Program-made: the position numbers and the translations under genes
The notes under the pieces: generated by a model
Seen by the model: only the letters and a program-made list of their open reading frames with translations
Databases searched by the model: none
What the model was told of the DNA's origin: nothing
DNA from: Ulota crispa
Lineage: Eukaryota > Streptophyta > Bryopsida > Orthotrichales > Orthotrichaceae
Length of the DNA stretch: 64,000 nucleotides
Assembly: GCA_963920765.1 (NCBI GenBank)
Contig: OY987248.1
Span: 9,334,539-9,398,538, forward strand
Direction of reading: 5' to 3'
Shown: in pieces, positions 7,482-62,449 of the stretch
Layout of the letters: the number at the start of each line of letters is the position of its first letter
How positions within the stretch are numbered: the stretch's first letter is position 1

Positions 7482-8420
7482 TTAACCCGTAAAGTCCTAA
7501 ACACCTTTTTTTGGCAACATAATGATTTTAGGCAGCTCAGTGCCATTGGGTTTTTCATCTTTTTTTCTTTGAAATCTTCACACATTATGTGTCTAAGGAG
7601 TACATTTATGATCCAAAACATTTATAAAACTTCTGGATTCATGGTTCAAAAGGTATTGCATGATTTGTTTTTATTTTGGTTTTTGGGTAGCCCAAGTAGC
7701 TCGGAAAACTTTAAAAAAAGCTACGTACATTGTTTTATTTTGATTTTTTTTATAGATTTAGATATACATGGAAAGCTTTGAATTGTTCAATTTTGATCAT
7801 TGAGATGAAAGTTATGAGGAGATTTTGTTTTTGGGCAATCATGGATTCTCTAATCTATAACAAACTTTGCAGTCCTTTATTTTACTTAGTTTTCATTATT
7901 TTGAAAAAAAAACAAAACCTGAGGATGTGGATTGTTTATCACAACATTACGACCAATGTGATTAAAATTTCTTGTTTCCACAATTAAGTTCTTAACAATT
8001 TTGTGTTTGAATCATTCTCTATGTACTTTTTTTACTTACTATTTTTTTCCCATACATTGCATTATTCCATATGATTTGAAAACTTTCAAGTGTTTACTCA
8101 ACTTTCTTTGAAGAAAAAATCCAAAAATTCCAACCATTTTGGAAAATATTTCACACAAATATGACCTTGTGAAATGCAGTACTGTGCAACTGCCCGGATT
8201 TTTGCAAGGGAAAAAAATGGCTTTTTGTTAATTCAAACTCAATTATCTCACAGTCTACATGGTGAAAGTTTTTGAATTTTTTTCACATCTTTTGATACTA
8301 ATGTAGTACAAGAACTTACCGCTACATGCGTCCAAAAGTATAAAATTTGATACTTGTGCTACAAGTAGTAGTTTTGGAGTGGTTTTAGTGAAAAACTTAG
8401 CTCAAGAATCTAGGGGTTAC
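7482..8420. mobile_element. TTAA-type (piggyBac-like) element inserted in HR copy A
   Basis: The left end is TTAA followed by CCCGTAAAGTCC, and the right end is AATCTAGGGG followed by TTAC. Flanking host sequence (GAAATTGCTTT on the left, TTACTATAACTG on the right) is continuous in HR copy D around an intact TTAA at 35478-35481, so insertion duplicated this target. The interior carries the core block GAAAGCTTTGAATTG plus ATGAGATGAAAGTTATGAGG shared with other members (7770-7830). No transposase frame is present. Confidence 0.72.
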
Positions 8421-8675
8421 TTACTATAACTGTAATATAGCTTTCAAAAGATTTCTATGCAAATTCTAGGTGAAGAGTTTTTCTTCAATGTTAAAACATG
8501 CATGATAATCCTAAACAAAAATTAAACCAAAAGTGCTCAATTTGGTAAAAGAACAATCTCTAAACAAATTGGCTATTGGTCTCAAAGATTTTTTTAAGTA
8601 GATGAAAATTGTTTGAAAGAGTTCTTTAAAAAGATCTTGTTGTCTTTGAGTCCAATCTTTTTTGGTATTAAGTGT
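8421..8675. repeat. Host repeat HR, copy A, middle part
   Basis: The sequence TTCTAGGTGAAGAGTTTTTC through AAAAAGATCTTGTTGTCTTT matches 13970-14190 and, inverted, 35230-35470. It is followed directly by the TTAA at 8676. Confidence 0.75.
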
Positions 8676-10334
8676 TTAACCCCTAAGCGCCCCAACTCCC
8701 CATATATCGCCTTCCACAATTTCAAAGCCTTGTTTTGAGGGACTGGATTTAACTTTTTGATCTTGCCATAAACTACAGTTATGAAGGCATTCAAGTTGTC
8801 CATGTCAATGGAGTAATGCCGAGGACAACCAAATGTTGTGCTATGGCCTCTAAGCTAGTTTCATTCACCTTGTTTTACCCTTCAAAAAATTTGGTATATT
8901 ATAAAATAAAATTAGAATTTTACAATCTTGCATCATTCTTTTTTAATTCTTACTCACTCCCAATCAAGCATACCAAATTTTGAGTTTCAAAAACCAAAAC
9001 CCTATTTTTGGTAATTTTTTTACACAATATTCATGGTTTGACACAATAAATGATTAGTAAAAAACTAGTAATGAATTTATGAGATTTGATTGCATGGATG
9101 CATAGTAAACATCCACACACACATCTTTTCTTCTGACAAACATCTCCAAAAAAAATTATAATTCCTTCTATGTAGATTTTATTGATGAAGTGATTACAAC
9201 CAAATCTTGTAAATTAGATATTTCTCCATGGTTATGGGATTTTTTTGTTTGACTTATACAATATAGTTTGGTTTGAATCTTTGAGCATAATAATATGGTT
9301 ATTTGCCAAAAACTAGTTAATTAAAAATACATGAATCTCTATTTTTCAAAATTTAAACATGATCACTCCAACGTTAAAATCTATATAGAAGGAATTGTAA
9401 TTTTTTTGGAGATGCTTGTTAGAAGAAAATATGTGTGTGTGGATGTTTCCTATACATCCATGCAATCAAACCTCAAAAATTCATTACCAATTTTTTTTAG
9501 TCATTCATCATGTAAAACCATGAAGACTATGTAAAAAATTTCACCAGTAATAGGATTTTGGTTTTTTGAAACTCAAAATTTGGTATGCTTGATTAGGGTT
9601 GAGTAAAAATTAAAAAAGAATGGTATAAGATTCTTGAATGCTAATTTTATTTTATAAAATGCCAATTTTTTTGAAGAGTACAATACAGTGAACAAAACTA
9701 GCTTGGAGGCACAAATGTTACAAGAGATTTAATTGGGTGAAACACCATACGAGGAGTGATGGCAAGCATACAGGGCGTGGTGGCTGGCAAGCAGTGTTTT
9801 ATAGGTTGCAACTGGTTAATATTGCTGTCAAGCTTCCTTGTGTGAGCTTTGTGGTAGTGAGAAAGTTGTTGTCAAGGGTTCAAGCATGTTCTAGACCCTT
9901 ATTATGACAACCGTCACCTAGTGTGCCGGTCATTGTTTTTTGTGCAATAAAAATTTGAAGCCTTAGAACTTGACATAAAAAGAAGAGAAATCTTCAATAA
10001 TTTACAAGTGAGTACATTCACATATAATCTTGCTGCTCACAAAATTTGAGATGGATCCAAGGCTTATAGAATTTTCTAAAAATCATCAAATAGCAGCTAC
10101 CTACCAAAAAATGAAATTTTGTCATTTGCATGTTGTTTGATCAAATGTCATAATCTCCCATCCTCATGGTGAATTGTTCCCAAAATTTGCAAGTCATTCT
10201 CTCAATAGGTGTCCCACTATTTTCAATGGCCACTTTTTGTGGATCATTTGATTAACATAGATACAATGCATCAAGGTTGTTGGTCTCCAAAAACTCTGAT
10301 TTTGGTGAAACCAGCATGGGCGCTCAGGGGTTAA
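8676..10334. mobile_element. TTAA-type (piggyBac-like) element, 1.66 kb, inserted in HR copy A
   Basis: The left end TTAACCCCTAAGCGCCC and right end GGGCGCTCAGGGGTTAA are inverted repeats flanked by TTAA at both sides (8676-8679, 10331-10334). The flanks AAGTGT and AGGATAAG are joined without the element in HR copy C at 14190 (target read as TTGA there). It contains a nested fold-back element at 8880-9675 and no coding frame. Confidence 0.78.
8880..9675. mobile_element. Long fold-back element FB1, copy 2 (nested)
   Basis: The arms of about 390 bp are inverted repeats: the CAATCAAGCATACCAAATTT and CTTGCATCATTC blocks on the left are mirrored at 9560-9640. It shares arm sequence with 3546-4410 and lies inside the TTAA element 8676-10334. 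Confidence 0.78.
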
Positions 10335-10437
10335 AGGATAAGGAAAATCAAGATGTAAAGGTTCATAATTAAAACCAAGTACAAACAAAGTGATCTATTT
10401 TCAGTGAATGAAATCTCCAACTTTTTGGGTAGCCTAT
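10335..10437. repeat. Host repeat HR, copy A, last part
   Basis: AAAATCAAGATGTAAAGG through TTTTTGGGTAGCCT matches 14195-14295 and completes the copy interrupted at 8676. Confidence 0.75.
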
Positions 10438-10438
10438 T

Positions 10439-12699: not shown

Positions 12700-13914
12700 T
12701 TAACCTCTAAAGAACCAAGGAGCGTTTTCACCAAAACTCTCTAATATTGCCATTTTTAGAGCATCAACCAAATTTGAGAATGAAAACCTCTTTTTGCATA
12801 TATAATCGTAGAATCCTGTAGTAAGATAATTTTAGAAGATTTTGAAAAAAAATTAGAATTTTTCACCACGTGGATTAGAAAATAGAATGGTTTGAATATT
12901 CAAAAACGTCTTGTGAAAATTTGAGCAGCTACCCTTCAGAAGGTAAAATTCCTTAAGGAAAAAAGGGCGTAAGGGTGGTGCTTCTCTAGACTCCTTTTCC
13001 ATCTAATTAGGATACATGTCAAATAAGTTTCAAATCAATTGGAATTATATAACATATGAGAAAAAAATAGTAAGCAAAAAGAAGTAGATATTGATTCAAA
13101 ACAAAATATTGTTAATGATTTTATTATAGAAATACAAAATGCCAAACCCAATGGTAGCAGTGTTGTAATAAACAATTTGTATCCTTTGGTTTTTTTTTTT
13201 TCCAAAATATTGAAAATTGAGTAAAATAAAGGACTTCAAAGTTTATTTAGAGTAGAGAATCCATAAAATGTGTTATTCATTAATCTAGGAAAATGATGGG
13301 TACCATTTTGTACCTCACCTTAATCCAAAATTGCCACCTTAATTCAAATTATGGAGGTCACCTAAAACCTAGTTAATGAACTTTTGTCCAAAATTTCAGA
13401 AGTTTATGAACTTTTTGTCCAAAAAAGCGTATTTCTAAATGATATATATCTCATTTCATTGGAAAACAATCAATGAATTCCCAATTCAATGAATATGGCG
13501 TTCTCTAAAAAGAAAGCTAGAAATCCCACTTTGTACGCTTTTTCCCAAATTAACAAATAACGCTTTATAACAAAAACTCCTCATATCTTTCATCTCATTG
13601 ATCAAAATGGAATGCTTCAAAGCTTTCCACATTCACATAAATCTCCTAAGCCAATTTCAATTTTTTATTTTTGAAAAACTTGATTTTGTAAAATCTGCCC
13701 AAACTACCCGCTGAGTGAAAAAACAACATATTAGGCCACATTTTCTTATTCATACTTCCAAATTTCATGAAATTTAGTGCATATGAAAAACAAACCTTGT
13801 TCCCACACTCTTTTAAAAATTTAGCCTAAAAATTGAAACTCTCCAATCTCTGATACCTCCTCAAAATTGCTGTGTTGCTAAAAAAAAAACAGGGCTTGGT
13901 CCTTCATGGGTTAA
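12700..13914. mobile_element. TTAA-type (piggyBac-like) element, 1.2 kb, inserted in HR copy C
   Basis: The left end is TTAACCTCTAAAGAACCAAG and the right end CTTGGTCCTTCATGGGTTAA, inverted repeats with TTAA on both sides. Host flanks (CTTTAAAAA and TTTCAATTCCC) are continuous in HR copies A and D. The interior holds the family core in inverse sense (TCTTTCATCTCATTGATC at 13590-13610). No open frame of note. Confidence 0.75.
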
Positions 13915-14300
13915 GGCTCCTTTCAATTCCCGAAAAAAGTAAAATTGTTTTTTTTTCAAACAAACCGTATGCAAGTTCTAGGTGAAGAATTCTTCTTCAG
14001 TGTTAAAAAATGCATGATAATCCTAAACAAAAATCAAACCAAAATTGTTAAAATTTGGTAAAAGAACCATTTCTAAACAATTTGGCTATTGATCTTAAAG
14101 ATTTTCTTTGAGTTGATGAAAATTGTTTGAAAGAGTTATTTAAAAAGATCTTGTTGTCTTTAAGTCCAATGCTTTTTGGTATTAAGTGTTTGAAGGATAA
14201 ACAAAATCAAGATGTAAAGGTTCATAATTAAAATCAAGTACTCACAAAGTGATCAATTTTCAGTGGATGAAATTTCCAGCTTTCTGGGTAGCCTAGTTCA
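13915..14300. repeat. Host repeat HR, copy C, second part
   Basis: It runs from CAATTCCCGAAAAAAGT through the GCTTTCTGGGTAGCCT block. It supplies the uninterrupted equivalent (AAGTGTTTGAAGGATAAAC at 14184-14202) of the insertion point used by the element at 8676-10334. Confidence 0.75.
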
Positions 14301-16583: not shown

Positions 16584-16739
16584 TGCAATTAGAACAAAAT
16601 AATTCCTTGTGTAAGGTTACCCTAAAATGTAAATTATATAACACATATACCTACTTACAAATTATTGATGTAAACATGGAACTTTTTTATATCCTTGAAC
16701 ATTGATTGGAGGTTTTCTAATATTTTGCATATTTCTTTA

Positions 16740-17145
16740 GGGATAGACTAGGAAGACACCCCCCAATTGCTAGGGAGACACTCTTATAGCACAACCTATT
16801 AAATTTGAGATTATTGTTACGTCAAAACAAGAAATAAAATCAAAACAATATTTTAATGCACATTTGCATTTGCAAGCATTGCAAACATATAACAAATATG
16901 TCTCATTTGTGACATGGTTAAGAGTTAAAAATTGATCATTCCTTTCCTTTGTAAGTTTAACTCTTGACCAGGTTGTAAATAAGACATATTTGTTGAATTT
17001 TTGCAAGGCTTGCAAATGCAAATGTGCGCTAAAATATTGTTTGAATTTATTTTTCATTTAGACATTAAAATAATCTCAATTTTAATAGGTTGGGTTATAG
17101 GGGTGTCTCCCTAGCAACTGGGTGGCTGTCTCCTTAGTCCGTCCC
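16740..17145. mobile_element. Fold-back MITE with GGGAYRGACTA ends
   Basis: The left end GGGATAGACTAGGAAGACAC and the right end CTCCTTAGTCCGTCCC are inverted repeats. TTGCTAGGGAGACAC is mirrored by GTGTCTCCCTAGCAA. Further inward, CATTTGCATTTGCAAGC is mirrored too, so most of the 406 bp folds back. Confidence 0.75.
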
Positions 17146-17991
17146 TTTTTTTTTAACATGTTTGCTAAATTGGACATATATACCTCTGACTTTATGTTTT
17201 TGCAAGTATATCTTAGAGTTTTGCAAATCAAAATGTTGATTTGATTATTATTAATGGACTTTAAATAGTCCGTATTTATTTAAATGTGATATTGATAAAT
17301 ATTTAAATATTTCTTGAAGATTTTTTTGTATTCGTTTTTTTCTATACAATTTTGACATTGATATTTTGACCGCATTGAATTAAAATTAGGTTGTACTCCC
17401 GGGTGTACTCCTTATATTCTAATTTCACAAAACTGCAAATTTGAAATGGCATGCTTTAGTATTATGTTATAATTTTAGCATGAGGTTCTCAAAACTTGAT
17501 TTTAAAAATAAAGAGGGTTCTTTTTGCCCTAAAACATAATAAAACAACATAACAAAGCTTGCCAAATCTATATTGTACTATATTGGAGAATTCTCTACAT
17601 ACAGTGTTTTGTTGTTTTTTGATCAGTTGAGAGCCTAGAGTTACATTTGAAAAAGCTTGAAAAAGCAATAAGATAGTAATTTCAGTCTTCATCATGTCTT
17701 ACATCTACGGTGTTCTTTAAAATTTTAGAGCAAACTTTATACATAATGTGTAATCTACTTGTATTCTGTTCGAAGTTTTGCAATAATTTCGAACCCTTCC
17801 AACAAAATTGGAAAATTTATATTGTCCAAACAGCATGTGATCCCATATTTAAAAATAGTAATAAATTATTTTATTCATGCATAATGGCAAATCAGGATAC
17901 AAAAACAAAAGGATTTTGTGGTTTGACTATGTAAAAGACCCATCATTGTAGGTTTATATGTCTTCATAAGTGTGGATCTTTTATGCTATAG
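17146..17991. other. Intergenic, nothing recognised
   Basis: AT-rich sequence with short overlapping frames only. No feature is supported. Confidence 0.5.
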
Positions 17992-18766
17992 TTAACCCGT
18001 GAAGGACCAAAGAGCCCAATATGGCCAAAGGGGTTGCTTGAAGGTGTGAAAGTATATAAAAGAGGTATTTTTAGCTTAAATTTTGGTTTGTCACTCAAGT
18101 CTAAATGGAGTTGCTAGTTCAAGGAAAAAAATTAATTGGCTCATTGTTTCTTGAAGCACCTCCTTTGCTCTAAATTCTACATGGAATATGGAAAATATTC
18201 TATTTTTTTAACAATTAGGAGAAGAATGTTTTTGGGAAAACAAAAGGAGCGGCTTAGAGAGCGGACGGGATGTGTGCTCTCATGTCTTGTATTGTACAAG
18301 GGAGAAGTTTGGTGATGTGTCACTTTTTTTGTCTTGATTTGGGCAAGGTTTTTATAGTTCTAAAGTAAGGAGCTAGTGGAATCTAGCTACTTTGACTAAC
18401 CATATCTTTTGGAGTGTTTTTCCATTTGTGGAGTTTTTTTCCCCATCAAGTATAGCTAGTCACAATCTCATGGGATTAGCCATTAAGTAAATCTTTTTTT
18501 GAGAAAATGTTACATGAAAGTCCAAAATCCATATTTTGAACTATTGCCCAAATTGGAAAACATGAGATTCTCAACGGTGGGGATTTTGCATATGTACTTG
18601 GATTTGAAATCAAACTGGTTTAAAACATTTGATCTATAGTTGGGTATAGAATGGCCGGTTTGGATTATGTGATTACTTGTTCAACTTTCCAAAAACTTGG
18701 GGAATATGTTGAAGGTTTCATGTTGGAGATATGCTGAATTTTCTTAGCAAGACGCTTAGAGGTTAA
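17992..18766. mobile_element. Possible TTAA-type (piggyBac-like) element
   Basis: TTAA plus CCCGTGAAGGACCAAAG stands at 17992, and CTTAGAGG plus TTAA at 18756-18766. The terminal match is short, and an alternative right end near 18970 (AGTTCTTTAGGGAT) is possible, so the right boundary is uncertain. Confidence 0.4.
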
Positions 18767-19292: not shown

Positions 19293-20103
19293 AGGGAAAA
19301 TATCAAAAATACCCCTCAATTCTTTCAAAATATCAAGTATACCCATATATTATTTGAAATATCAAAAACACCCCTTGCTTTGTGTAGTAATATCAATTAT
19401 GTCCTTAGTTCTTTGGGACATTCAATTATTATCAAACATCAAATCATTACAAAGGATTTGGACCCAAGAATGGGCCCCTTCCCCCAAAACTATGGGAACT
19501 TTGGGAACACTTCCACATAGGCAATTTGAAGCAGTCTGACATGGCATTAGGGCAACCACGTTGGATATTATTATTTAATTATTATTTTTGGAAAAAAACT
19601 TTTTTTTGACTTTATTTTATAATATATTATTATTTTTCTGACGACTAGCACTGGCATTGGGAACATCCAAACTCACAGCCCTTTCTTGGGTCCAAATACC
19701 TTATAATGATACCCTTGTATTATTTGGATTATAAACATATTTCTAACTCTCTTGTGCGACTTTTTGCAAATATTTGTAAATATTTGGATGATAATGGAAA
19801 GTACAAAAACTAGATGTAAGTTGAAAGCAACCAAATTTTGGAAGCAAGCTCTTTAAGTTCTAAATAGGGTGTTTGCATGTAAGTCTATAGTGGTGAAAGC
19901 TATTGTAGTGATTACATAGTGATTTTTGCTATCATTTTTATATTTGAAAAGAAATTGCAATAAAGAGGTACAAAGCATTAGGGGTATTAATGGTATTCTC
20001 AAAAATAACTAGGGATATAATTGAGTATTTTTTATATTTCAAATAATATAGAGGTATATTTGATATTTTGAAAGAATTGAGGGGTATATATGATATTTTC
20101 CCT
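19293..20103. mobile_element. Fold-back element with AGGGAAAATATCA ends
   Basis: The left end AGGGAAAATATCAAAAATAC is mirrored by TATATGATATTTTCCCT. CCCCTCAATTCTTTCAAAATA is mirrored by TTTTGAAAGAATTGAGGGG on the right. A second inner pair (GGACCCAAGAA against TTCTTGGGTCC) shows the fold continues inward over the 811 bp. It encodes nothing. Confidence 0.78.
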
Positions 20104-20726: not shown

Positions 20727-20796
20727 TTGTGTAATGGTCTACTTTTGCACCTCTCAAACTTCAAGAAGTGCATTTGTATCTTCACCTCATCTCTAC

Positions 20797-21115
20797 TAAG
20801 GTAGAAACACCCATAAGCGTTAGTGTTCCCATAACCATCACCTTTGAAATCTTGGAAAATTTGTGGAAATGAATAGATGTAATTACAAGGATGTACAACA
20901 AGTGGACATGAAACCTTAGTGTTGGTTATGGGTGCAATGGCAGTTTGCTCTTTATAAATTCACAACTTATTCTCATAGTATCCAAATAATACATTCAAAA
21001 ATGCAAACTCATTATTTTTTTTGTTGCTAACAGGATCCTATAATTTGCTAGATGTTTATTAATAGTCATCATGTTCAAAACACTTAAACTAACGCTTATG
21101 GGTGTTCCTACCTTA
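20797..21115 (+). mobile_element. Tc1/mariner-like MITE, family B, complete
   Basis: TAAGGTAGAAACACCCATAA is mirrored by TTATGGGTGTTCCTACCTTA, differing at one base, with TA at each edge. The interior (CCCATAACCATCACC, GAATAGATGTAATTACAAGG) is shared with 37313-37630 and, inverted, with 36295-36615, giving a family of about 320 bp. Confidence 0.85.
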
Positions 21116-23337
21116 TCATGCATGTGTATGGGAACTTAATATTTTCTTGACAAAATTCATCTTTTGTCAATTTCCAAAAGTTGGCTTGAATCAACCTTTG
21201 AAGTACTTTGATCTTAGATTTTCATTTTGGAATTCTCAAAACAACCCACACAATAATAAGAATTGGGTGGGTGGGTGTGTTACTCCATTGAAATCAAAAA
21301 GAAAATGCAGCAATGCACTCTAAAGAAAGCATGCATTTTCCTTGATGATATTTTATGTTTTCTAAATCGATTTTTTTTTCCTATACACTTGCAAAAAGAT
21401 AAAAAAGTGATGCCCCTATTCCAAACTAGATGGCTCTTGGGTCATTTCTTTCAAGTTGGGAATTTCCACCAAGCTACTTATTTATATTGCACTCATGATG
21501 TGTATCAAATTGGAAGTGAGCAATTCATTTCATTTAAATTTGTCATTGTTTACGGTACCTAAAGGATCTTTTAATCAATTTTTTAGTTACAACTGATAGT
21601 TATATATATTGTGACCTCTATAGCTGCAATTTGCGCTGCCAGTTCTTCTCCCTCAAAGCAAGCCCTATCATGCACAAATCAAAAGCCAAAGCCCAACATT
21701 CAAAAGCTGTCACAATCTAACTAAATACAAAAAATGATTGCCGTTTCATTGATATGATGCACGCAAAACATCAATGTACATATAACAAATAAAGTTAGTT
21801 TTGTGTTTGCTAAAGCGGGTATGTTGTTTTGGAGATTAGATATTGTGACATTCAAATGCAGAAAGTTTTGAGAAAAATAGGACATTCAAGCGTCCAAAGC
21901 TCTAACAAGACAAGGTTCCAATTATATGACTTGAAACTAAGCTAATTTTGCATATTCATCCATTTTTTTTTAACAACTGCAACTTTATCAATAATAAGTG
22001 AACAAAATTGCAAAGATCACAAGGATCACCAACTAATGTAAAAATCTCACCGAAGTCAAAAATAAATTAGTGAGAGCAAGAACTTGACATTTCAAACTTA
22101 AATGATTATGCTAATGTAGCTAGTTGGAATGCAATTAAATAGTTGTGGTTTCATACGTGCAAGGAGGGTCCGGAATAGTTATGGCAGGATCCAAGTTCTC
22201 ACTTGTTCCAATTTTTTGGGCATCATTGCACTTGTTGTCTTCACTGGTATCAAAGGGACCAGTGGTGCTGCTTCTTGCTAGTGGATTCAAGTCCATCTTT
22301 ACTTTTGACTTCAAAACTTGTAGAATAAGGAGCAAACCACCTTTGCAATTGATGCACTATTGTGGCGAGAAATTTGTATTAGAAAAACATGAGGTTTATT
22401 TTACAAAGAGTTTGATAAAAATAAATAAATGATACATCATATACAAAAAATAATAATTTCTCAACATGCATACATACTCATTAACATAATTCTTACATAA
22501 CAATAATGAACACCTTTCTTCCTAGTTTAATAATCATAATATACTTTCACTTTTATCTTTTACTTTTGTTTTTTTTATTATACTTATCTATTTACTTAAT
22601 TGCATTAAATAGCTAAAAGTTGGTTATTCCAATGACTTAAACATCAATGAAAAATTCACCATAAATCACCTAATAGTTGCTTTGGGAGATTGAAAATAAC
22701 ACTACTACTTGTGCGTAGCATGTGCAATGTTTGCAAGTTTTGACTACTACGGTTGTTCACGCTAAGGGAGAGTGGTCATCAATCTCAAAAAAGATAACAA
22801 GGTTCTACAAGTGCGACACTTGACACATAACTTTTAGGAAGAAAACAAGTGTAAATCGAATGACGCAAACCTTACTCATAAAATAGTACGAAGTGCTTCA
22901 CGAATATACTATTTAGGATATATATAGAACCCCAATATATGTATATCAATGACATGGATTGCCTAGTGAGGCAAAAAAAATAGAGTAACATGTAAACGTA
23001 GCACCATGGATTGTATCTTTAAACCGCAGTTAATGAACTTAATAAATTGCACAGGACGCAAGGGGCCAAATAGGCAACGGGTCATGGCTAGGCAGCCACG
23101 CGCTGTTGCCCTGCCTAGCCAAGGCGCCAGGTCAACTGGGCCCACTTTCAAGGGCAACATTTAATGTCCAGCAAAACCCTTGTCATTAAAGGGTTATGTA
23201 ATCAAAAAGCAGAAGGTATCAAAGTTCCTATTGAAACCAAAGATTCCTTTCTATTGCAATAAAAGATTCCACTCTATTGAAACCAAAGATTCTTTTCTAT
23301 TGAAAGATTCATTTCCAAGCCAAAGATTCCTTTTTAT
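21116..23337. other. Intergenic, no certain gene
   Basis: Most of this is AT-rich and featureless. A 66-codon minus-strand frame at 22135-22335 has a coding-like composition (S, T, D, P rich) but no recognisable domain. A GC-rich island lies at 23040-23150. From 23232 degenerate forerunners of the downstream 23-bp repeat appear. Confidence 0.45.
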
Positions 23338-23958
23338 GGAAACCAAAGATTCCTTTTTATGGAAACCAAAGATTCCTTTTTATGGAAACCAAAGATTCCT
23401 TTTTATGGAAACCAAAGATTCCTTTTTATGGAAACCAAAGATTCCTTCCTATGGAAACCAAAGATTCCTTCCTATGGAAACCAAAGATTCCTTCCTATGG
23501 AAACCAAAGATTCCTTCCTATGGAAACCAAAGATTCCTTCCTATGGAAACCAAAGATTCCTTCCTATGGAAACCAAAGATTCCTTCCTATGGAAACCAAA
23601 GATTCCTTCCTATGGAAACCAAAGATTCCTTCCTATGGAAACCAAAGATTCCTTCCTATGGAAACCAAAGATTCCTTCCTATGGAAACCAAAGATTCCTT
23701 CCTATGGAAACCAAAGATTCCTTCCTATGGAAACCAAAGATTCCTTCCTATGGAAACCAAAAATTCCTTCCTATGGAAACCAAAGATTCTTTCTTATGGA
23801 AACCAAAGATTCCTTCCTATGGAAACCAAAAATTCCTTCCTATGGAAACCAAAAATTCCTTCCTATGAAAACCAAAAATTCCTTCCTATGAAAACCAAAG
23901 ATTCCTTCCTATGGAAACCAAAAATTCTTTCCTACGGAAACCAAAGATTCATTTCTAT
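23338..23958 (+). repeat. 23-bp minisatellite, 27 units
   Basis: The unit is GGAAACCAAAGATTCCTTCC plus TAT. GGAAACC (GAAAACC in a few late units) starts every 23 bases from 23338 to 23936, so 27 units follow each other without a single indel. Early units read CTTTTTAT, the central block is homogeneous CTTCCTAT, and late units carry AAAATTCC changes, a graded variant map typical of unequal exchange. Because 23 is not a multiple of three, each plus-strand frame reads the same 23-residue cycle, and none contains a stop within the array. The array lies about 190 bp upstream of the RAB5IF-type start codon. Confidence 0.97.
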
Positions 23959-30261: not shown

Positions 30262-31027
30262 TTAACCCCTGAGCGCCCAGCCTGTGAACTGTGAAGGCGA
30301 GCTCGGGAAGGGGTACTGCCATTGGTATTAGTGTCGTCGTTAGGGGACTTAGATCCAGAGAAAATGACCGCTGAATCAAGTTTAGGACAACATTGCGGAT
30401 TACTTGGGTTGAATTACAGAGGGTTACACCATTAGGAGAAAAAGATTATAACAGTCAAACTGAGGTTGACATTGTTGGAGGGAGGAGATATTTGGGAAGC
30501 GTTCCGCTTGCAAAAGTCGGTACAAGCTGAGTAACATGTATTCACCCACGAAATTCTAGCACGGTCTTTGGGAATGGGTTTCTAGACATGCTACACATTT
30601 TCAGATTTTTCTGATGACAAATTCACCACTTCTTTGGTCAAGAATGCACTCCAGGCTTGGGGTGATACAAGCTGTCACTGGTTTCAAGGTACACCACTCA
30701 CTGACATGCTGTCGTCTCGTCCCTGTCCTCTCCCTTTGAACCAAGACCAGGACCTTCCCATCTCACGCCAAAAACTGGGCTGCAACCGGCTCTCCTTGGT
30801 AAAACCAGTCAAAATCCAAACCTATGAACGTTGTGTTGTTGCTGTAATTCCACAAAGCAACGTACAGCGACTTCATTTGCAAGTTATCCCAATACCTCTA
30901 GCTAAGTATCCCACTCTATCCCAAAGCTGTACCATCCACTAAACATGACAAATACATCCACGACCATTGAGCTTGTTTTTTTAATTCCTTGCAATAGGAT
31001 ACCGTTGGCTGGGCGCTTAGGGGTTAA
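30262..31027. mobile_element. TTAA-type (piggyBac-like) element, 0.77 kb
   Basis: TTAACCCCTGAGCGCCCAGC is mirrored by GCTGGGCGCTTAGGGGTTAA, with TTAA at 30262-30265 and 31024-31027. The right TTAA is shared with the next element. The interior is GC-richer than most copies and carries no convincing gene. Confidence 0.82.
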
Positions 31028-31267
31028 CCCTTGAGCGCCCAGCACAAGTTCATTCAAATCCAAATCCTTTGGAACTCGTTCCAATCAAATTGTCACCTAG
31101 AAAAGATCTACAAAAATTGACCATATTGGTACAGAATATAGGTCCGGAGCTCCAAGGAAAAGGACACGTCCTTTCACCATACCATTGAAAAGATTATAAT
31201 GATCAAACAAGGAAATTTTTCAAAACCAAGAGGCCATATTTTGGCCCCTTGGGCGCTCAGGGGTTAA
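31024..31267. mobile_element. TTAA-type (piggyBac-like) MITE abutting the previous element
   Basis: It starts at the shared TTAA (31024), reads CCCTTGAGCGCCCAG, and closes CTTGGGCGCTCAGGGG plus TTAA at 31264-31267. At 31021-31030 the sequence GGGTTAACCC joins the two elements head to tail with one target site between them. Confidence 0.82.
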
Positions 31268-33553: not shown

Positions 33554-34286
33554 TTAATCCCTAAAGGACCGTTTTCCCCTTGGAGGAAAAAAGGGAATTT
33601 GAGCCTGTACTTAATTTGGGCATGTACTTATAATTAAACTATTTTGTATGATTTTCTGAAATTTTTAGAGAAGATGGGAAATTTAAAAATATGCTTGGGT
33701 ATTTAATTTTTCCTTCACTCTGACATTGACGGAAGAAGTTATGCATTGATTTTGAAAAATGGGAGAGAGCGGGTAGCCCAAAAACTTTTTTAAAAATTGC
33801 ATTTAAAAAATATATATACATGGGAAATTGGTTCTTTAGATTTACATATATGTGGGAAGCTTAGCATTCAATTTTGATTGATGAGATGAAAGTTATGAGA
33901 AGTTTTAGTATGGGGGTAGGTATGGAGTCTCTCAAAACCATACCTACCCACAAACTAAAACGTCTCATAACTTTCATCTCATCAATCAAAATTGACTAAT
34001 TCAAAGCTTTGTACGTATATGTAAATCTAAAGAACCAATTTCCAATTTTTTGTTTTTAAAAAAGGAAATTTTTAAAAAACTTTTTTAGTTTGCCCGTCCA
34101 CCTTGGTTTTCCAAAATTCATGCATAACTTCTTTAATAAATGTTGGAAAGAAAAAAAAATTACATGCTCACACAAGTCTTTAAATTCCCATCTTCCATAA
34201 AAGTTTCAAAAAAGTAGTTTAACTATAAGTACGCGTCTAAAATTCCATTTGTCCCCAGCCGGGACATTTGATCTTTTAGGAGTTGC
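33554..34286. mobile_element. TTAA-type (piggyBac-like) element with palindromic centre
   Basis: The left end is TTAATCCCTAAAGGACC. The right end (GATCTTTTAGGAGTTGC) is degenerate. The central part folds back almost perfectly around 33945: TGATTGATGAGATGAAAG on the left is mirrored by CTTTCATCTCATCAATCA on the right. These blocks are the family core also seen at 7770 and 44800. Confidence 0.6.
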
Positions 34287-35149
34287 AACATGAATTCCAC
34301 TGATAAATGTCTTTCGATACACACAAGATTCACCGTAATTGTAACTAAAGGATCTTGAGTCAAGAATATACATATTTGAAGAACATGCATATTTGATACT
34401 GTGTATGAACATCTTGTAGGTCTTCACCTTCAAAAAAGTACAAAAGAACACCAACGTTTTGTATGATCATGAAATCGTGTAGAACATATGATATGTACTA
34501 CACGACTATGAAATCTTCTATATTATGATTATACATGTATACAAAATTTCTAATTTCTACTAAATGAGAATTAAAAAAAAAAAAAAAAAAACCCTCTCCA
34601 CTGCAATATTGTTTGAGTGTAAGTAAAAAATGAAATGTCTAAAACAATCCATTTTATTCATTAACTTATTTGATTTCTTGGATATCAACACGGTTTGTTG
34701 ATTAACATTTAATTTATCTAGTTTAAGTCCTTCATGCATGTTGATCTAAAATGTTCAAATAGACATTAATATTCACTTCCATACTATGTTGATCCATTTG
34801 GAAGGTTTTCTTAATACAAGGTTAACATCGATGTAAGGTGAAGGTAAAGTGAAGATCACTTCTGAATCAATAGTATGAAAAGTTTTGATTGTTTCAACAA
34901 GAAGTTCATTCAATGTATAATTGAATGTTATTTCCAATACTTAGATGGGACAAATGGATTTTTTATACATGACTATGTTTCAACTGTCATTAAAATTTGT
35001 TACTAGCATGGATAATTGCAAAATTCAAATACACAGCCTAAGTGGCCCTCACTCATGAACTTTGCAAGCACAATTCCATAGCCGTCAATCAACTTGATTT
35101 AGATCCCTTGACTTGTCGCTTAGAAAAAAACCTCTCCTATGTTGTTATT
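34287..35149. other. Intergenic, nothing recognised
   Basis: AT-rich DNA with an A tract at 34571-34590. No gene is supported. Confidence 0.5.
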
Positions 35150-35700
35150 TGAAACCTTTTAGCTTTGTTAATACTTAATTTTAATTATGAACCTTTACAT
35201 CTTGATTTCTTTAATCATTTAAAAATTTAAGATCTCAAAATATTGGACTTAAAGACAGCAAGATCTTTTTAAATAACTCATTCAAACAATTTTCATAAAC
35301 TTAAAAAAACTTTAAGATCAATAGCCAAATTGTTTAGAGATAGTTCTTTTACCAAATTGAACAATTTTGGTTTAATTTTGTTTAGGATTATATCATGCAT
35401 GTTTTAACAATGAAGAAAAAAAATCACCTAAAACGAGCATACAAGTTTGTTTGAAAGCTATCATACAGTTATAGTAATTAAAAAAGTAATTCTTACTTTT
35501 CTTGGGAATTGAAAGTAACCCTAATTCGTGAAGGGTTAAGATGATGAGCATTGCTCAAATATTGAAATTCTAAGTACGTGGAATTTTCTTGAGGAAACAA
35601 CCAAACTACATCTTCCAAAAACGTTTGTATCATTTTCAAGAAACCTTCAAAAGCAATATAAAATTACTTCTTAAAATTGACTTTTTTTTAAAATAACCCC
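35150..35700 (-). repeat. Host repeat HR, copy D, uninterrupted
   Basis: The reverse complement follows copy A parts 7286-7481 plus 8405-8675 and copy C parts 12525-12699 plus 13915-14290 without interruption. It therefore shows the ancestral arrangement. The sequence TTTTTTAATTAC around 35478-35481 is the intact target of the element at 7482-8420. Confidence 0.78.
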
Positions 35701-36294
35701 TCAAGGTCTAACTATCCCTTCTGGGGATAAGTGGATCTCAGGCATGTACATGTGACTAAACCAATTTTTATAATCTTTTTATAATTTTTGAGGAAGTTGT
35801 GGAAGTCAAAGAATGATGTATGAGTACATGTAATTTTTTCTTCACATTTATTGAAAAAGTTGTGCATGAATTTCTAAAAAACAGAGAAGGGTAGGTAGTT
35901 TGGGCAGCCCAGAAAAACTTTTTTGAAAACTGCGTTTTTTAAAATCTAAAATCTAAAATCAGTTATTTAGATATATACATAAGTGGGAAGCTTTAAATCA
36001 TTCAATTTTGATTGATGAGTGAGTAGTTTTAGTTTGCAGGTAGATACAAGACTCCCAAACTTCCATTCCTTTTGCTCCTTGTAAAATTTGGTGAATTGAT
36101 TTGATTTTTATTTTTAAAAATCCTCCAATTTTGCCTAGTGTATATGCAAATTCTATGGCCTTTATGGCATTGCAAGATTTTACAAAGTATGACTCACACC
36201 TCCAATTCATTGGAAATTCTCCCACACTTACCTAACTTGGTCTTCTACATGGAAAAAATAAACCTCAACTTTGCATAGAGCAATTTTATTGATA

Positions 36295-36615
36295 TAAGGT
36301 AGCAGCACCCATAACCGTCAAACATATGGTTTTGAACATGATGATTATTAATAAACATCTTGGAAATTATAGGATCCTATTAGCAAGAGAAAAATGAGGA
36401 GTTTACTCTTTTGAATGTATTATTTGGATATTGTGAGAATAAGTTGTGAATTTTTAAAGAGCTGATTGCAATTGCACCTAATACCAACACTAAGGTTTCA
36501 TGTTCACAAGTTGTACATCCTTGTAATTACATCTGTTCACTTTCACAAAATTTCCAAGATTTTAAAGGTGGTAGTTATGGGTGCACTGATGGTTATGGAT
36601 GTTGTTGCTACCTTA
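36295..36615 (-). mobile_element. Tc1/mariner-like MITE, family B, complete
   Basis: TAAGGTAGCAGCACCCATAA mirrors TTATGGATGTTGTTGCTACC-type sequence ending CCTTA at 36615. The body is the reverse complement of 20797-21115 and 37313-37630. The edges are TA. Confidence 0.8.
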
Positions 36616-36865
36616 GGAGAGGTCAAAGGCTTATGAAATTTTTGGGCAATAGGGGAATTTTTTTTTGCACTTCAAATGTCCATATCTCATTCCTCTACAT
36701 ATAAAACAAGCTGATTTTTTTCCCACAAGTACCTCCCATAGTCTAGGGCAGGATCCTACGGTTAGATTTTAAAAATAAAACACTTTTTCTACTTTCCTAT
36801 TCATTGCCCTACAAGTGGTAGTTTTCAATGACTTTTACAAAATAAAAGGCTTGGGCCTTTACGGG

Positions 36866-37253
36866 TTAGCCCTTGAACAACCGAGCAACCCATTGCAACC
36901 AATACAATACAGAGTATTTTTTTTGGTATTTGGAGTGCATCCACGCCTTTATTACATTTGAGATCAACAAAGAAGTTTGAATATAGATCAATGCTGTTCT
37001 AGTGAGGTAGTTAACCCTTAAAGGACCAAGCTACTACAACACATACTATGTATACTGCTGTATAACTGGCATTTTGATACCAACAAAAAGTTTTAATTTG
37101 GAATCTTGACTACCTCACTAGAACAACATTGATCTATATTCTAACTTCTTTGTTGATTTCAAATGTAATAAAGGTGTAAATGCATTCCAAACACAAGAAA
37201 AATACTCTGTATTGTATTGGTTGCAAGGGGTTGCTTGGTTGTTCAAGGGTTAA
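36866..37253. mobile_element. TTAA-type (piggyBac-like) fold-back element
   Basis: TTAGCCCTTGAACAACCGAG mirrors TGGTTGTTCAAGGGTTAA. Arms of about 145 bp are inverted repeats (ATAGATCAATGCTGTTCTAG against CTAGAACAACATTGATCTAT). A second terminus, TTAACCCTTAAAGGACC, sits at the centre (37011), so elements are nested. The bases before 36866 (GGGCCTTTACGGG) are the right end of yet another copy. Confidence 0.72.
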
Positions 37254-37312
37254 GATCCCAAGTTAAAACTTTTTGTTGGTAGCAAATGCCAATTGTACAG
37301 CAACAAACATAC

Positions 37313-37630: not shown

Positions 37631-37644
37631 TAGTAGCTCTATCC

Positions 37645-38080: not shown

Positions 38081-38190
38081 TTAGGGTTTCATCCTCCTCC
38101 ATTGCTCAAGCTTCTACTCAGCCCTCTCTCCGCATTCCGCCACCGCAGCTGAAACTCTCTTACGAACCTTTCCTCCTCCCTTAGGGTTTA
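38081..38190 (+). promoter_or_regulatory. Two teloboxes in the SF3B3 leader
   Basis: TTAGGGTTT occurs at 38081-38089 and 38181-38189, with a further CAGGGTTTT at 38200. Teloboxes in leaders of plant housekeeping genes are associated with expression in dividing cells. The younger pseudogene retains the second site as CAGGGTTTATCAC. Confidence 0.5.
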
Positions 38191-38268
38191 TCACGCACTC
38201 AGGGTTTTACACGACTTTTATTCTTCCTTAGTTTTGTTTCAGGCCGGGTGCTTTAGAAGCCTTGAGCC

Positions 38269-43337: not shown

Positions 43338-44050
43338 TGACTAACCAAATATACTACTACCTTATGCCTGGTGTAAAATTAGAACGTGTGCTTACTAAAA
43401 TTTGGGAACGTATAAAAAAATTACTTCGTATTTAAATAAACAAAATAACATATGAAAATGAATATTGGACAATCAAAATAAGGCTTACTGAAAGCCAGCT
43501 AGAAGACAAACAGTATGGAAAACGGGATTGATATGTCTACCACACCCTTTCAACTATTCCAAACTGTGGGGTAAATTTTAAATTTCTATCATCAAATAGT
43601 TGAATTTTAGAATTTGGAATTCAAATTTGGATTTAGAGACCGTGATTTAGTCTAGAATCACAAAAATGGTCTAATTGAACAACATCCAATGAAAAAACTT
43701 ATCTTTTTTATAAACAAAAGTAAAAGTAATACATTTCCCTCGAGCTAAGCTTTTTCATTGGGTGTTGTTCAATTACAACTATTTCTTGTGGTTCTAGGCA
43801 AAGTCAAGGTCTCTAAGTCCAAATCTGAATTCTAAATTCTCAAATTCAACTATTTGATGATAGAAATCTAAAATTTACCCCGGGAGTGTGGTAGAATAGT
43901 TGAAAGGATGTGGTAGACATATCAATCCCCTATGGAGAACCATGCTTACAAAAAAGAACTCATGGTAATGGTACACCAAGTTTTAATAATAATAGTTTGA
44001 CATTTTTAATTTTACACCAAGAAAAAGGTAGTAACATATTTGGTTAGTCA
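43338..44050. mobile_element. Long fold-back element with TGACTAACCAAATAT ends
   Basis: TGACTAACCAAATATACTAC mirrors GTAACATATTTGGTTAGTCA. The inversion runs through nearly all of the 713 bp, for example TATCATCAAATAGTTGAA at about 43588 against TTCAACTATTTGATGATA at about 43846. There is no coding frame. Confidence 0.85.
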
Positions 44051-44515: not shown

Positions 44516-45444
44516 TTAACCCCTAAAGGACCAATTGGGACAAAGGGTACTTTAAGCATGTACCTTTGGATAAGCTACTTTTGGTAATTTTTTGAAACTT
44601 TTATTGAAGGAGGGGAATTCAAAGGCCTACGTGGGCATCTAATTTTTTTTCATTTTGACATTTGACAAAGAAGTTATGCATGAACTTTTGAAAATTTGGG
44701 GAGGAATATCCGTTTGGGCAGCACAAAAAATTTCTTTACATTTTTTAATTTTTCAAAATTTAAATTTGAAATTAGTTCTTTAGATTTTTTTATATGTGGG
44801 AAGCTTTGAATCATTCAATTTCAATCAATGAGATGGAAGTTATGAGGAGTTTTTGTTTGCAGCAGTTATGGATTCTCTACTCTAAAACAAACTTTAAAGT
44901 CCTTTATTTTACTCAATTTTCAATATTTTGGAAAAAAAAACAAACAAAAGGAAGTAGATTGTTTATTACAACATTATATCCATTGGGATTTTCATTTTTC
45001 ATTTCAATAATTAAATTCTTAACAATTTAGTGATTTGACTCATTCTCTACTTCTTTTTACTTACTATTTTTTTCCCATGTGTTGTATAATTCCAATTGAT
45101 TTGAAAATTCTCCCACATGTACCTAACTTGACCTCCTACATGGAAAAATAAAAGCACAACTTTGGGTAGAGCAATTTTTTTTCATATAAAGGTGGTCAAA
45201 GACTTCTAAAATTTATGGAGTGCAGAGAAAAACATTTTTTTTACTACTTGAGATGTAAATATCTCCCTTCTCTCTATCTAGAATGATATGATTTTTTTCC
45301 CACAAGTACCTCTTCTAGTCTAAGGTAAGAACTTATGGTTGCATTTCCAAGAAAATAAAAAAATCTACCTTCTTATTCATCCCCTAGAAGTGACAATTTT
45401 CAGTGATTTTGATAGAAAAAGGGGCTTGGTCCTTTAGGGATTAA
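44516..45444. mobile_element. TTAA-type (piggyBac-like) element, 929 bp
   Basis: TTAACCCCTAAAGGACCAAT mirrors CTTGGTCCTTTAGGGATTAA, with TTAA at both ends. The interior contains the core blocks GGGAAGCTTTGAATCATTC and ATGAGATGGAAGTTATGAGG (44798-44849) shared with the element at 7482. Confidence 0.8.
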
Positions 45445-54048: not shown

Positions 54049-54049
54049 A

Positions 54050-59001: not shown

Positions 59002-60069
59002 GATGTATGGAACCACCTTTGTCTCTACGTCTCTATCCTGCTATGCTCTGGAGTATGAAGCTTTTCGAAATTCACCTTCGTGGCCTAGAAGTTCTCTACA
59101 TGGCGGATGTGGATTTTTTAAATCTAGCTGGTTGCTAGAATCTTTTGATGTGGAGGACGTCATTTGAGTTCTATTCAGGTGCACAATGATTAGTTAGTCG
59201 AAACTTATGATAAGTCTCTGAATAGCCTGAGATGCTGTCTCAACTGGCGCTTATTTCATAGGCATCTCAGGAGCAAAGCATGCACTCTTTTAGTCAGGCT
59301 TTGTAGAAGTTTTCTCTTGTGCCAAATTGGTGCCTTAGCGCTGAACACATATCTTTCAAATCCTTTTTATTTTGTGTTGTCTTTTGAAATGACTACAACT
59401 TCGCAGACTGTAGTCATTTGGCTTTGAGTCTGCTTTATCTTTTGAAGTAACGTCTCTGTCTAGGGCACTTGGTGTTTGTAATGGTAAGGTTTTGGACCAT
59501 TCCCCGTTGCATAAAACTCTCATCTTTTTGTAACAAAGCATGTGTCCAATCCCTAGGTAGGATGCTCGAGATGACTGTGTGCAGGCAAGTAGCAATGCTG
59601 TTTAACTGTGTGAGCACCCTTTTAGATCAAGTAGACATTATTTGCACTGCAGGCTTTGGCTTCGATGTCGCTTGCCGTTCTTGTTCTTACGTTCATATAA
59701 CGATTAGATTGTAGTCATTATTGACTTACTCAAATTTTGATTCTAGTCTAAGTTTTGACCTTCTTAGAAGGTCCTCAGAGGCCAAACATTGGACTTCATT
59801 AAGTTGTGTAACTCTGTTCTCCAAGAGCAAGTTTTGCTTTTACCTTGAACAGGTTTGATTTGTTCTGGAGTTCTAGGGAACCGGATTTTTTTCTTTTGAT
59901 TGGTGTTAATACTCAGTGCGAAGTTCTTGACAAGGACTGCTTATGTTCGTAGGGCAACAATGAATGAATCGTCTATGGCAGCTTTGTAAAAGAAATATGC
60001 ACACAACCTTCGATTACGTATAGGATCCTTGTTGAGAGCACCACCGCGAGGACCGTAGCTACTAACCCT
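59002..60069. other. 3' flank of COPE
   Basis: Mixed-composition DNA, probably 3' UTR in its first part. No other gene was recognised. Confidence 0.45.
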
Positions 60070-60998
60070 TTAACCCCTAAAGGACCATGGCCTTTATTTT
60101 GTCAAAAGACACTCAAAACTGCCACGTCTATGGCAAAGAGTAAAAAAGTTTGAAAATTAGGCATTTTGCATATCTGACCGTAGGATCTTGTGCTAGACTA
60201 CTATAAGAATGTGTCATACAAAACTCAAGAACTTTGACTACATAAATTGGAAGATATATGCATTTAAAATGTAAAAAAAAACTTTTTTTTGCACCTTGTT
60301 TGACTAGATTTTTAACTTTGAACATTTTTAACTTAAATTTTTTGCACCAAGGAGTTTGGAATTCTATTTTTGCATGGTGAGAAGTTGAGTTGGTAATCTT
60401 GAAAAAAACAAAAAACAAAAAATACTTAATTTTCATTCTTTAAAAAAACATTAGGTAGAAGAAAGTATGAGATTGAACAAAAACTTAAATTGCTAACAAC
60501 CTTGCAATGGAATTGAAACGCAATAATTCCAATGGTGAGATTGTTCTAGAAAGCAAACTTCACCTTCTCCAACAATTTTTTTTGAAAAAATGTTAAACCT
60601 GCACTCAAAAATGAAGTTTATAAGTTATTTTTTCAAGGAGATGCTTGAGTTGCCCAAAAAACAAGATTGTCCATAATGTTCTCATAACTAGTCCAAATGG
60701 AATGAATCAAAGCTTCAGATGTAGACAAAGATATAATATATAAGAAAAAAAATTAAATTTGTTTTTCCAAGTTTTTATAAGAATTTTTTTTGCTGCCCCT
60801 AGTCCCCAAGTATGTGCTTATTTGGGCATAACTTTTGCTCTCTGGCATCAACTGGAATAAAATTATATTCCCCAAAAGTTAATGTGTTTTTTTATTATTT
60901 TTTTTAAATTCAAAAAATAAGGACAAAAATTGAGGCCGTAGGTACCTACCCGAAATCTCATTTGTCCGCCATAAGGACAATGGTCCTTTAGGGGTTAA
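60070..60998. mobile_element. TTAA-type (piggyBac-like) element, 929 bp
   Basis: TTAACCCCTAAAGGACCATG mirrors CAATGGTCCTTTAGGGGTTAA, with exact TTAA at 60070-60073 and 60995-60998. It has the same length as 44516-45444 and a partial core (AATGGAATGAATCAAAGCTT near 60700). It encodes nothing recognisable. Confidence 0.85.
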
Positions 60999-61586
60999 GG
61001 ACCACATTCATTTTCAGAAAACCCACTAAAATCGGATGGCAAATTTAGATGAGTAGTTGAATCAAATATGAACATACTTTGAACAATCCAACCATACAAA
61101 TTGTGAAGGTGACACCTTGTTTGTTGTCACATATCAAAATTTTAGCTAGATTTATTGTTGGAGATGAAATATTATAATGTTTGAGTGAACTATATGTGGA
61201 ACATTTCTAATTTTTCATGCTTGTGTGGTTTTGGATTTTAATGCTTCATGCAAACTTTGATTGAAAGAGCCTCACATTTCTAGAAAGCCAAGGTTCCAAC
61301 CTTTCCAATAAGCCTAGTTTCACACAAAATAGATAAAAATAGCAATCACAAAGTGTAGCTAAGTGGACAAAAAGGGTCAAAAATCCCACTTTCTTGGCTA
61401 CCCTTAAACTGTTCTACAAGAAATTTGATAACTGTTGTGGAAAATCCAATTGTTGAAAACAATCAAGAATTGGCCTTGAATGTAGGATGACTAACTTTAA
61501 AGATGAAATGACAACACCATTTTAGTAGATCTTTAAACACTACAATTATACTGCTACTATATAGGAAAATAGTACAAGTGTATTTC
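60999..61586. other. Intergenic, nothing recognised
   Basis: AT-rich DNA without a supported gene. Confidence 0.5.
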
Positions 61587-62449
61587 TTAACCCCTAAACA
61601 CCCAAAAGCCCTTTGTGGCCGTACGTACAGACTTATTTGAGCTGCTCTAAGGGCTTTCCAATTTTTTTTATGCACCCACCACCATACAACCCTTCAATAT
61701 GTATGGTTGTAACACTTAACCCCTAAATGCCCAAGGCACCCAATTTGGGTGTTTGCAAAACTTTGAAGACAAATAAAATCTTATCAAATCACTAGTTTTG
61801 GTATTTTCTTTTTAGCACAAGTTTGTTTTGAAGTCTATTTTCAACATCAAAAATTTGATTTTGAAAATGAATGTTCATGATTTTTCTATTCAAGATTTTG
61901 TACAAGGCTATCCATTGAAATCTTGAGTTTTTTAGTATTGGAGGATCTTGAAAATGAGTCTCAAATACACTAGAGCTTGGAGAAAAATCCGCATTAGAAA
62001 TTGATTTAAAAAAATACAAGAGTAGATTTTGAAAGCCATAAATTGGTTGAGGATAAACATGTAATGACCTTAAACCTCATATTTTTTGGATGACCAACTT
62101 TTTAGATTTGACATGTGAAATGAAGATTAGAAAACTTCAAGTCACTTTTGCAGTTTTAACACCCTCATGTTCAAACGTTATAATCTTTCAAACTATAAGT
62201 AATATTGTTGTGTTTTCTTTTTCCATGTAATTTCTAACATGTCAAGTTTAAATTTGTACGGTTATAGTTTAAAAAAACTTGATGAGATTTATGAACAGAT
62301 TGATTGTTCACTTTCTTAAAAATATCAAAACATTCAGAAAGGCCTTTGACATTTAGGGGTTAATTTCCAACTTATTCAAATTTCTGAATATTGGTTGCAA
62401 CTGTATGTGGTACCGTATCTCCAAAGCCCAAGGGCCCTTCATGGGTTAA
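61587..62449. mobile_element. Possible outer TTAA-type element carrying a nested one
   Basis: TTAACCCCTAAACACCC at 61587 could pair with GGGCCCTTCATGGG plus TTAA at 62432-62449. The intact element 61716-62363 would then be an insertion within it. The terminal match is modest. Confidence 0.35.
61716..62363. mobile_element. TTAA-type (piggyBac-like) element, 648 bp
   Basis: TTAACCCCTAAATGCCCAAG mirrors CCTTTGACATTTAGGGGTTAA, with TTAA at both ends (61716-61719, 62360-62363). The interior is related to 5060-5509 in inverted orientation. Confidence 0.8.

Follow-up and report, generated by a model that had tools for sequence, protein, structure and literature searches.

Within a 64,000-nucleotide stretch of moss DNA (the window, which lies at C7:9334539-9398538 of a genome of 274.8 Mb in 157 contigs), numerous short elements begin with TTAA followed by CCC and end with GGG followed by TTAA. 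It is highly probable that these are miniature inverted-repeat transposable elements (MITEs) of the piggyBac superfamily, and that piggyBac elements coding for a transposase, approximately 5.0-6.5 kb in length and of several families, occur in the same moss genome. The original prediction, made from the letters of the window, had taken the elements to be non-autonomous and piggyBac-like, and it is supported by two lines of evidence, namely coding elements with the same kind of ends and duplication of the TTAA on insertion; both had been set as points on which the prediction could fail, and both came out in favour of piggyBac.

Coding elements and their left-end palindrome

The piggyBac transposase profile PF13843 (DDE_Tnp_1_7) has at least 120 matches in the genome, with a best E-value of 1.3e-73; this count is a lower bound, 116 of 528 candidates having been scored. 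In 14 control genomes, the same profile had zero matches. At least one stop is present in 110 of the 120 matches. Twenty loci, consisting of 9.5-kb stretches around matches selected for few stops, were read, and this search of the genome does find the predicted kind of ends on elements that code for piggyBac transposase, with a DDD transposase of the DDE_Tnp_1_7 family lying between them. Both tips were assigned at 12 of the 20 loci. The similarity between L036 and L038 is 89-93%, and since it stops at tips TTAAC[CT]CCTTGAGG on both sides, the element is delimited there, with a length of 5.2-5.3 kb. A right tip of the ATGCCC type is common to L034 and L035 (the left tip of L034 was not recognised), one of the AGGACC type is common to L043 and L047, and L033 and L037 have a right tip type of their own, while the transposase-bearing element at 831-7284 of L048 has GCGCCC-like tips. 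At the 12 loci with both tips, mean agreement between the two is 8.4 of 11 positions versus 5.1 across loci (permutation p 5e-5). This p value is optimistic, since selection among the candidate pairs was by eye; in this permutation, the right tip of L048 was taken three bases out of position, which lowers its score, and was kept in.

Compared with solved structures, the transposase of L030 aligns with piggyBat (9c0f, 2.6e-24) and piggyBac (6x67, 7.6e-20), catalytic aspartate motifs included, and that of L045 aligns with 6x67 (1.6e-25) and 9c0f (2.7e-21). Six further transposase pieces matched PF13843 only, except for the C-terminal piece of L034, which had two matches below their cut-offs. By motif search, the D1, D2 and D3 motifs were found at 15, 16 and 16 of the 20 loci, respectively. 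Pfam zinc-finger models gave nothing above the cut-off on the transposase pieces.

A further shared feature is a palindrome near one end. Nine left ends (i.e. those upstream of the transposase) and 10 right ends were examined, all selected before the palindrome was noticed. In the left ends, the axis of the palindrome lies at bp 25 from the tip, where a mean of 0.75 of eight pairs match, the next best centre reaching 0.40; in the right ends, 0 to 0.5 of the pairs match at this centre, and further in only inverted repeats scoring 4-6 were observed. At least five of the eight pairs are present at bp 25 in 7 of 9 left ends and in 0 of 10 right ends, i.e. the ends are asymmetric, with binding as a prediction. 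The palindromes vary by family (GAGGACAC..GTGTCCTC, GGGGACA..TGTCCCC and AACGCCAT..ATGGCGTT), and their position is constant. In a set of 63 tips of every kind, five or more of the eight pairs match at the bp-25 centre in 17, compared with 3.9% of random window sequence. Based on excerpts of the relevant publications, which is the form in which all literature is cited here, the cryo-electron microscopy structure of T. ni piggyBac has a zinc-finger dimer on a palindrome at bp 17-33, with the centre of the minor groove near bp 25 (PMC7351741), and piggyBat has palindromes on its left end and none on its right (PMC11707139). Moss families with different palindromes may read them by different zinc fingers.

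Two side observations concern the coding loci. Upstream of the transposase and inside the element, there are long open frames in L034 (2284-3675, 464 amino acids) and L035 (minus strand, 5802-7091, 430 amino acids), both rich in Q, E and R; open frames in this position in L030, L031, L034 and L035 have no Pfam match at E 0.01. Additionally, equal-scoring transposase matches occur as pairs in opposite orientation, approximately 14-20 kb apart (C2:36765124/36779670 and C7:18203169/18223004), as if they lay in inverted segmental duplications.

Tips, elements and empty sites of the window

Counted in both directions, TTAACCC occurs 32 times in the window versus 9.4 expected, and TTAACCCNTRARNG occurs 21 times versus 0.04 expected, each expectation coming from 100 first-order Markov simulations. 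With a tip profile built from 26 tips, all of them outside the window, 34 window tips score at least 10 bits versus 2.0 expected, and 27 score at least 16 bits versus 0.13 expected (30 simulations). The tips have the short terminal inverted repeat (TIR) of piggyBac, starting with CCC or CCY. Nor is the TTAA simply built into the search, since CCCYTRARNGNCC, when sought regardless of the preceding bases in the window and the 20 other loci, stood behind TTAA in 32 of 35 matches; the other three were preceded by a tetramer one base off TTAA. Rfam, at gathering scores, had no match in the window.

All seven of the elements that had been named as examples proved to be element pairs. Five have the exact form TTAACCC...GGGTTAA, and two have a damaged right tip (at 12524, TTAACCTTAG reading inward; at 45444, TTAATCCC). 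The claim of at least 15 pairs was too high; 11 elements were paired directly, two of which are doubtful (17992-18766 and 37011-37253), and two more are broken by later insertions (61587-62449 and 33554-36868). Some other window tips are without a recognisable partner. The elements are as follows, with a strand given wherever one was assigned.

4465..5509, minus strand: non-autonomous element, ATGCCC group, 1045 bp; tips 12.9 and 24.2 bits, the left one damaged (TTAACACC); palindrome at the 5509 end; 4924-5509 is 78.5% identical to 8844-9454 of L045
8676..10334: non-autonomous element, GCGCCC group, 1659 bp, flanked left and right by TTAA; tip scores of 27.9 and 27.5 bits
12279..12524, plus strand: non-autonomous element of only 246 bp; tip scores of 13.2 and 11.8 bits; the sequence shows a GGACAGATCTGTCC palindrome just inside the left tip
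12700..13914: non-autonomous element, AGGACC group, 1215 bp; tips 17.9 and 23.6 bits
17992..18766: 775 bp, a possible element with tip scores of 24.3 and 14.9 bits; pairing doubtful because the two tips are from different tip groups
30262..31027: non-autonomous element, GCGCCC group, 766 bp; tips 27.5 and 28.6 bits; right TTAA common with 31024-31267
31024..31267, minus strand: non-autonomous element, GCGCCC group, 244 bp; tip scores of 25.0 and 27.5 bits; a palindrome lies at its 31267 end
33554..36868: member of the 929-bp AGGACC family, broken by nested insertions; left tip 22.3 bits; 33612-33932, 36201-36297 and 36621-36868 align with successive parts of 44516-45444
37011..37253: possible 243-bp element with uncertain limits; tips 26.3 and 19.5 bits; within a longer, self-inverted hairpin repeat (36866-37253)
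44516..45444: non-autonomous element, AGGACC group, 929 bp; tips 28.8 and 23.3 bits
60070..60998, minus strand: non-autonomous element, AGGACC group, 929 bp; tips 28.8 and 28.8 bits; inserted at a TTAA that is internal to the tip of a different element
61587..62449: short MITE with 215 bp of its own sequence; tips 23.8 and 21.0 bits; interrupted by 61716-62363; an uninterrupted relative lies at 1501-1732 of L004
61716..62363, plus strand: non-autonomous element, ATGCCC group, 648 bp; tips 26.7 and 21.2 bits
62446..62449: TTAA common to two elements; a further element begins here (TTAACCCCTGAGCGCCC, 26.5 bits), its partner not found

Two TTAA sites are thus shared between neighbours (31024-31027 and 62446-62449). 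By our own estimate, a special preference for inserting into existing tips is not needed to explain them, given approximately 32 tip sites among the 415 TTAA of the window.

In the copies that could be tested, the TTAA is duplicated on insertion, as seen when four occupied sites were aligned with empty relatives and a fifth was inspected by eye. The aligned pairs of occupied and unoccupied sites, in each of which the empty relative has one TTAA-like tetramer, are those of 8676-10334, 12700-13914, 61716-62363 and L048. For 8676-10334, there are two empty sites, a repeat copy at 14111-14273 (92%) with a single TTGA and one at 35302-35163 (84%) with a single TTAA. The empty relative of 12700-13914 is at 35604-35480 (88%, single TTAG), and that of 61716-62363 is in L004 (82.5%, single TTCA). 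In the fourth pair, the transposase-bearing element of L048 is inserted in a MITE copy whose window counterpart, 12700-13914, is uninterrupted near 12938 and is 80-84% identical to both flanks of the insertion. In the comparison by eye, in which few left-side bases are comparable, 60070-60998 splits the internal TTAA of another tip, and that tip is whole in L037. Because the empty sites hold one copy, the TTAA is a duplication, and the reading of it as part of the TIR is ruled out. Altogether, 17 joined flanks were tested, with three spanning matches and one case (37011-37253) set aside as ambiguous; the other 13 had no spanning match among the sequences compared. Two joined-flank matches of 37011-37253 were not accepted as empty sites, one of them lying inside the element and the region itself being a hairpin repeat.

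The MITEs can also be tied to particular coding elements. The right 365 bp of 44516-45444 (45080-45444) match the right end of the L047 element (2301-2666) with 74.5% identity over 373 bp (E 1.3e-61), and the right end of this MITE has a weaker match to L043 (67.6%, E 1.3e-23). For the element at 61716, 31 of 34 bases of the left tip are shared with the left tip of L035. By subterminal similarity, then, the AGGACC group appears to derive from a coding element, and the tips suggest the same for the other groups.

The TTAA that 60070-60998 occupies belongs to a further MITE family, which lies at 60062-61588 in the window and is approximately 910 bp long in L031 and L042. The tips of this family are TTAACCCTTTAAAGACC; they contain a TTAA of their own, which has here been used as a target by another element.

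Copy number, age and competing explanations

Genome-wide, the tip TTAACCCCTAARNGNCC has 17,774 exact occurrences (8,916 + 8,858), and its reversed control has 0. There are 8,876 exact occurrences of CCCCTAAAGGACCA, 7,555 (85%) of which are directly behind an exact TTAA. Three window elements were used as genome queries, and the best 40 matches of each were scored. The 929-bp element (60070-60998) had 3,274 first-look candidates, its 39 best other copies being 90-91% identical to it; the 648-bp element (61716-62363) had 4,891, with 39 best other copies at 91-93%; and the 244-bp element (31024-31267) had 666, with 39 best other copies at 87-90%. These best copies are full or nearly full length, and none of the 39 in any of the three families is near-identical. 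The elements are therefore MITEs in the usual sense, i.e. short, without transposase, present in many copies of fixed length and related to a coding element. Among the best 39 copies per family, the identities are strikingly even, as would be expected from one burst from one source per family, followed by separate decay.

The original prediction had also placed an active or recently active transposase elsewhere in the genome. Transposase genes are indeed present; however, present activity of the piggyBac elements is not supported, given the stops in 110 of 120 transposase matches, the distance of 7-13% between the three MITEs and their nearest copies, and the fact that the stop-free stretch of L030 has its nearest relative at 81%. 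It is unlikely, then, that the MITEs are still moving, driven by an intact transposase outside the 20 loci read. This explanation could draw upon the 120 matches being a lower bound and upon the 10 of them that are stop-free over the matched stretch. The 87-93% identity of the best copies in the three MITE families examined, together with the 81% of the nearest relative of the L030 stretch, speaks against it.

A mechanism consistent with these data can be proposed. The DDD core of a piggyBac transposase would bind the tip CCCYTRARNGNCC, and a dimer of its C-terminal zinc finger would bind the bp-25 palindrome of one end. The enzyme would then cut at the TTAA, excise the element and join it to another TTAA, which would be left on both sides. 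MITEs would have arisen by internal deletion, keeping the tips and little else, and coding elements of the matching tip group would have mobilised them in trans, so that they multiplied in bursts that were over some time ago.

A number of observations weigh against assigning the MITEs to piggyBac and to these coding elements. At 8 of the 20 transposase loci, only a right tip was assigned, and a lone tip near a transposase is weak evidence because MITE tips are dense in this genome. The tips of the coding loci were picked from candidates by eye (the left tip of L044 is the least sure), and at 6 of the 12 two-tip loci a rival candidate tip is equal or better (L035, L036, L042, L045, which is a tie, L046 and L048), as judged against shuffled sequence, a null that ignores the many real MITE tips. 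The aspartates are retained at 15, 15 and 15 of the 20 loci, and all three at only seven. The cysteine-rich domain is present in the form of a C-terminal cysteine/histidine motif of the expected kind, but at 12 of 20 loci. A fully intact transposase gene was not found among the 20 loci, which were read without intron modelling. The tetramers that flank L048 are TTCA and TCAA rather than TTAA, so the duplication there is imperfect, and those flanking L030 are ATAA and ATGG. Two of the nine left ends (L042 and L044) are without the palindrome, and in the pool of all 63 tips the highest dyad value (0.43) falls at index 17, inside the tip itself, the bp-25 centre being fourth (0.39). Finally, the GCGCCC MITEs are tied to L041 and L048 through their tips alone.

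Another TTAA-targeting superfamily, either Sola3 or an undescribed lineage, could in principle have made the MITEs, leaving the piggyBac transposases as bystanders. TTAA duplication by itself is no proof of piggyBac, and the many transposase matches with stops can be held against piggyBac as the source. Nevertheless, this explanation is very improbable, since there are coding elements with such tips at both ends, the two tips of one element being alike, since one of these (L048) is inserted in a MITE whose copy in the window is unoccupied at that point, and since a MITE and a coding element are similar over approximately 370 subterminal bp. Sola3 tips begin with GAG. The tips here begin with CCC and the transposase found is that of piggyBac, and thus Sola3 is rejected on both counts, much as the original prediction had held it to fit less well, although no search aimed at Sola profiles was made.

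That TTAACCCCTAAA is a chance or telomere-like motif instead of an element end hardly merits belief: the tip does contain CCCTAAA, the plant telomere unit, and a 30-base tandem array (19297-19375) contains CCCCTAAA with no TTAA before it, but the excess of tips, the reversed control of 0, the full-length families of fixed length (929, 648 and 244 bp) with both tips and the empty sites of tipped elements rule this out, and no tandem array among those listed is built of the tip with its TTAA.

Host, neighbouring features and known systems

That the genome belongs to a plant, as predicted, is confirmed by the LEAFY comparison, which narrows the host to a moss, most likely of the Bryopsida. One LEAFY DNA-binding domain is present in the genome, in two pieces, the larger of which is identical at 104 of 106 residues (244.7 bits) to 4bhk (FLORICAULA/LEAFY HOMOLOG 1), a Physcomitrella patens protein. 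The match to Arabidopsis LEAFY (2vy1) is lower, at 169.1 bits. According to a LEAFY phylogeny, mosses of the class Bryopsida have type II genes, while both types I and II occur in the remaining mosses (PMC6588583).

Besides the piggyBac elements, the window encodes the splicing factor SF3B3. About 36 kb separate the long open copy of SF3B3 from a decayed partial one (approximately 83%; 906-3047 on the minus strand versus 38102-39649 on the plus strand). A repeat of approximately 320 bp has three copies (20791-21116, 36294-36621 and 37310-37632) with tips AGGTAG...CTACCT or similar beside TA, and is perhaps a Tc1/mariner-type (Stowaway-like) MITE; its copy at 36294-36621 interrupts a piggyBac MITE. 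Long hairpin repeats (3532-4417, 5548-5926, 6723-6872, 8846-9710, 16739-17146, 33624-34232 and 43524-43929) are 75-85% identical to their own reverse complement, and some recur at other loci; these are perhaps fold-back elements. At 23225-23958, a 23-base unit is repeated in tandem approximately 28 times, with 96% similarity between copies, and more than one reading frame is open there over a long distance.

The earlier statement that land plants have no well-described piggyBac family is roughly right, yet plants had already been named in passing as piggyBac hosts (PMC10813416, PMC8086355), and PiggyBac had been reported for angiosperms and a fern. In the excerpts, PiggyBac is included among the angiosperm MITE superfamilies in a review (PMC10004981) and among plant superfamilies (PMC10794571), it is a tiny genome fraction in a grass (PMC8319324), and piggyBac as a tool had not yet been tried in P. 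patens (PMC5505980). In PMC10619864, the term matched was 'piggybacking'. Within the titles and abstract openings of the open-licence literature on piggyBac together with bryophytes, mosses or Physcomitr-, no report of a native moss piggyBac was found, and no description of coding piggyBac with matched MITEs in a land plant was found in the excerpts of the open-licence literature searched.

By every testable feature, the moss elements belong to a known superfamily, and what appears to be new is the host and the scale. We lean towards a radiation of coding piggyBac elements that is the moss's own, with several transposase lineages, each having its own tip and bp-25 palindrome, launching MITE families that grew to hundreds or thousands of copies. 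If this is true, the palindromes and zinc fingers of the lineages would document, in a natural setting, the joint evolution of a transposase and the site that it recognises. Whereas piggyBac is a workhorse of animal genetics, the land-plant reports found are thin; with coding elements, tip-matched MITEs and empty sites all in one moss genome, piggyBac becomes testable in plants. Questions that can now be put to the test include which transposase each MITE depends on, whether this is decided by the bp-25 palindrome, and how a TTAA-targeting family has shaped a compact moss genome. The varied pairs of tip and palindrome could also supply raw material for new piggyBac tools.

Among known systems, T. 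ni piggyBac (6x67, 6x68; PMC7351741) is similar in its TTAA target, CCC tips, DDD transposase and left palindrome at approximately bp 25, insofar as these are covered in the excerpts. The moss elements differ from it in length, being 5.0-6.5 kb versus approximately 2.5 kb (2472 bp, PMC10813416), in the tip CCCYTRARNGNCC, in having family-specific palindromes and no right-end palindrome at bp 25, and in their moss host. Like the moss elements, piggyBat of Myotis lucifugus (9c0f; PMC11707139), which is the best solved match of L030, has its palindrome on the left only; however, three copies of the left-end palindrome are described there, versus the one seen here without a search for more. The PiggyBac MITEs of angiosperms (PMC10004981) are likewise short elements assigned to PiggyBac, but in the available part of that review they appear as a listed superfamily name, whereas the moss MITEs share their genome with coding elements. 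Lastly, the PiggyBac repeats of Ceratopteris (PMC6890710) also bear this label in a land plant, although the table in question has 1,230 fragments totalling 122 kb, or 0.00% of the genome, and the accessible text gives no analysis of ends or transposase, in contrast to the tips, coding elements and copy numbers documented for the moss.

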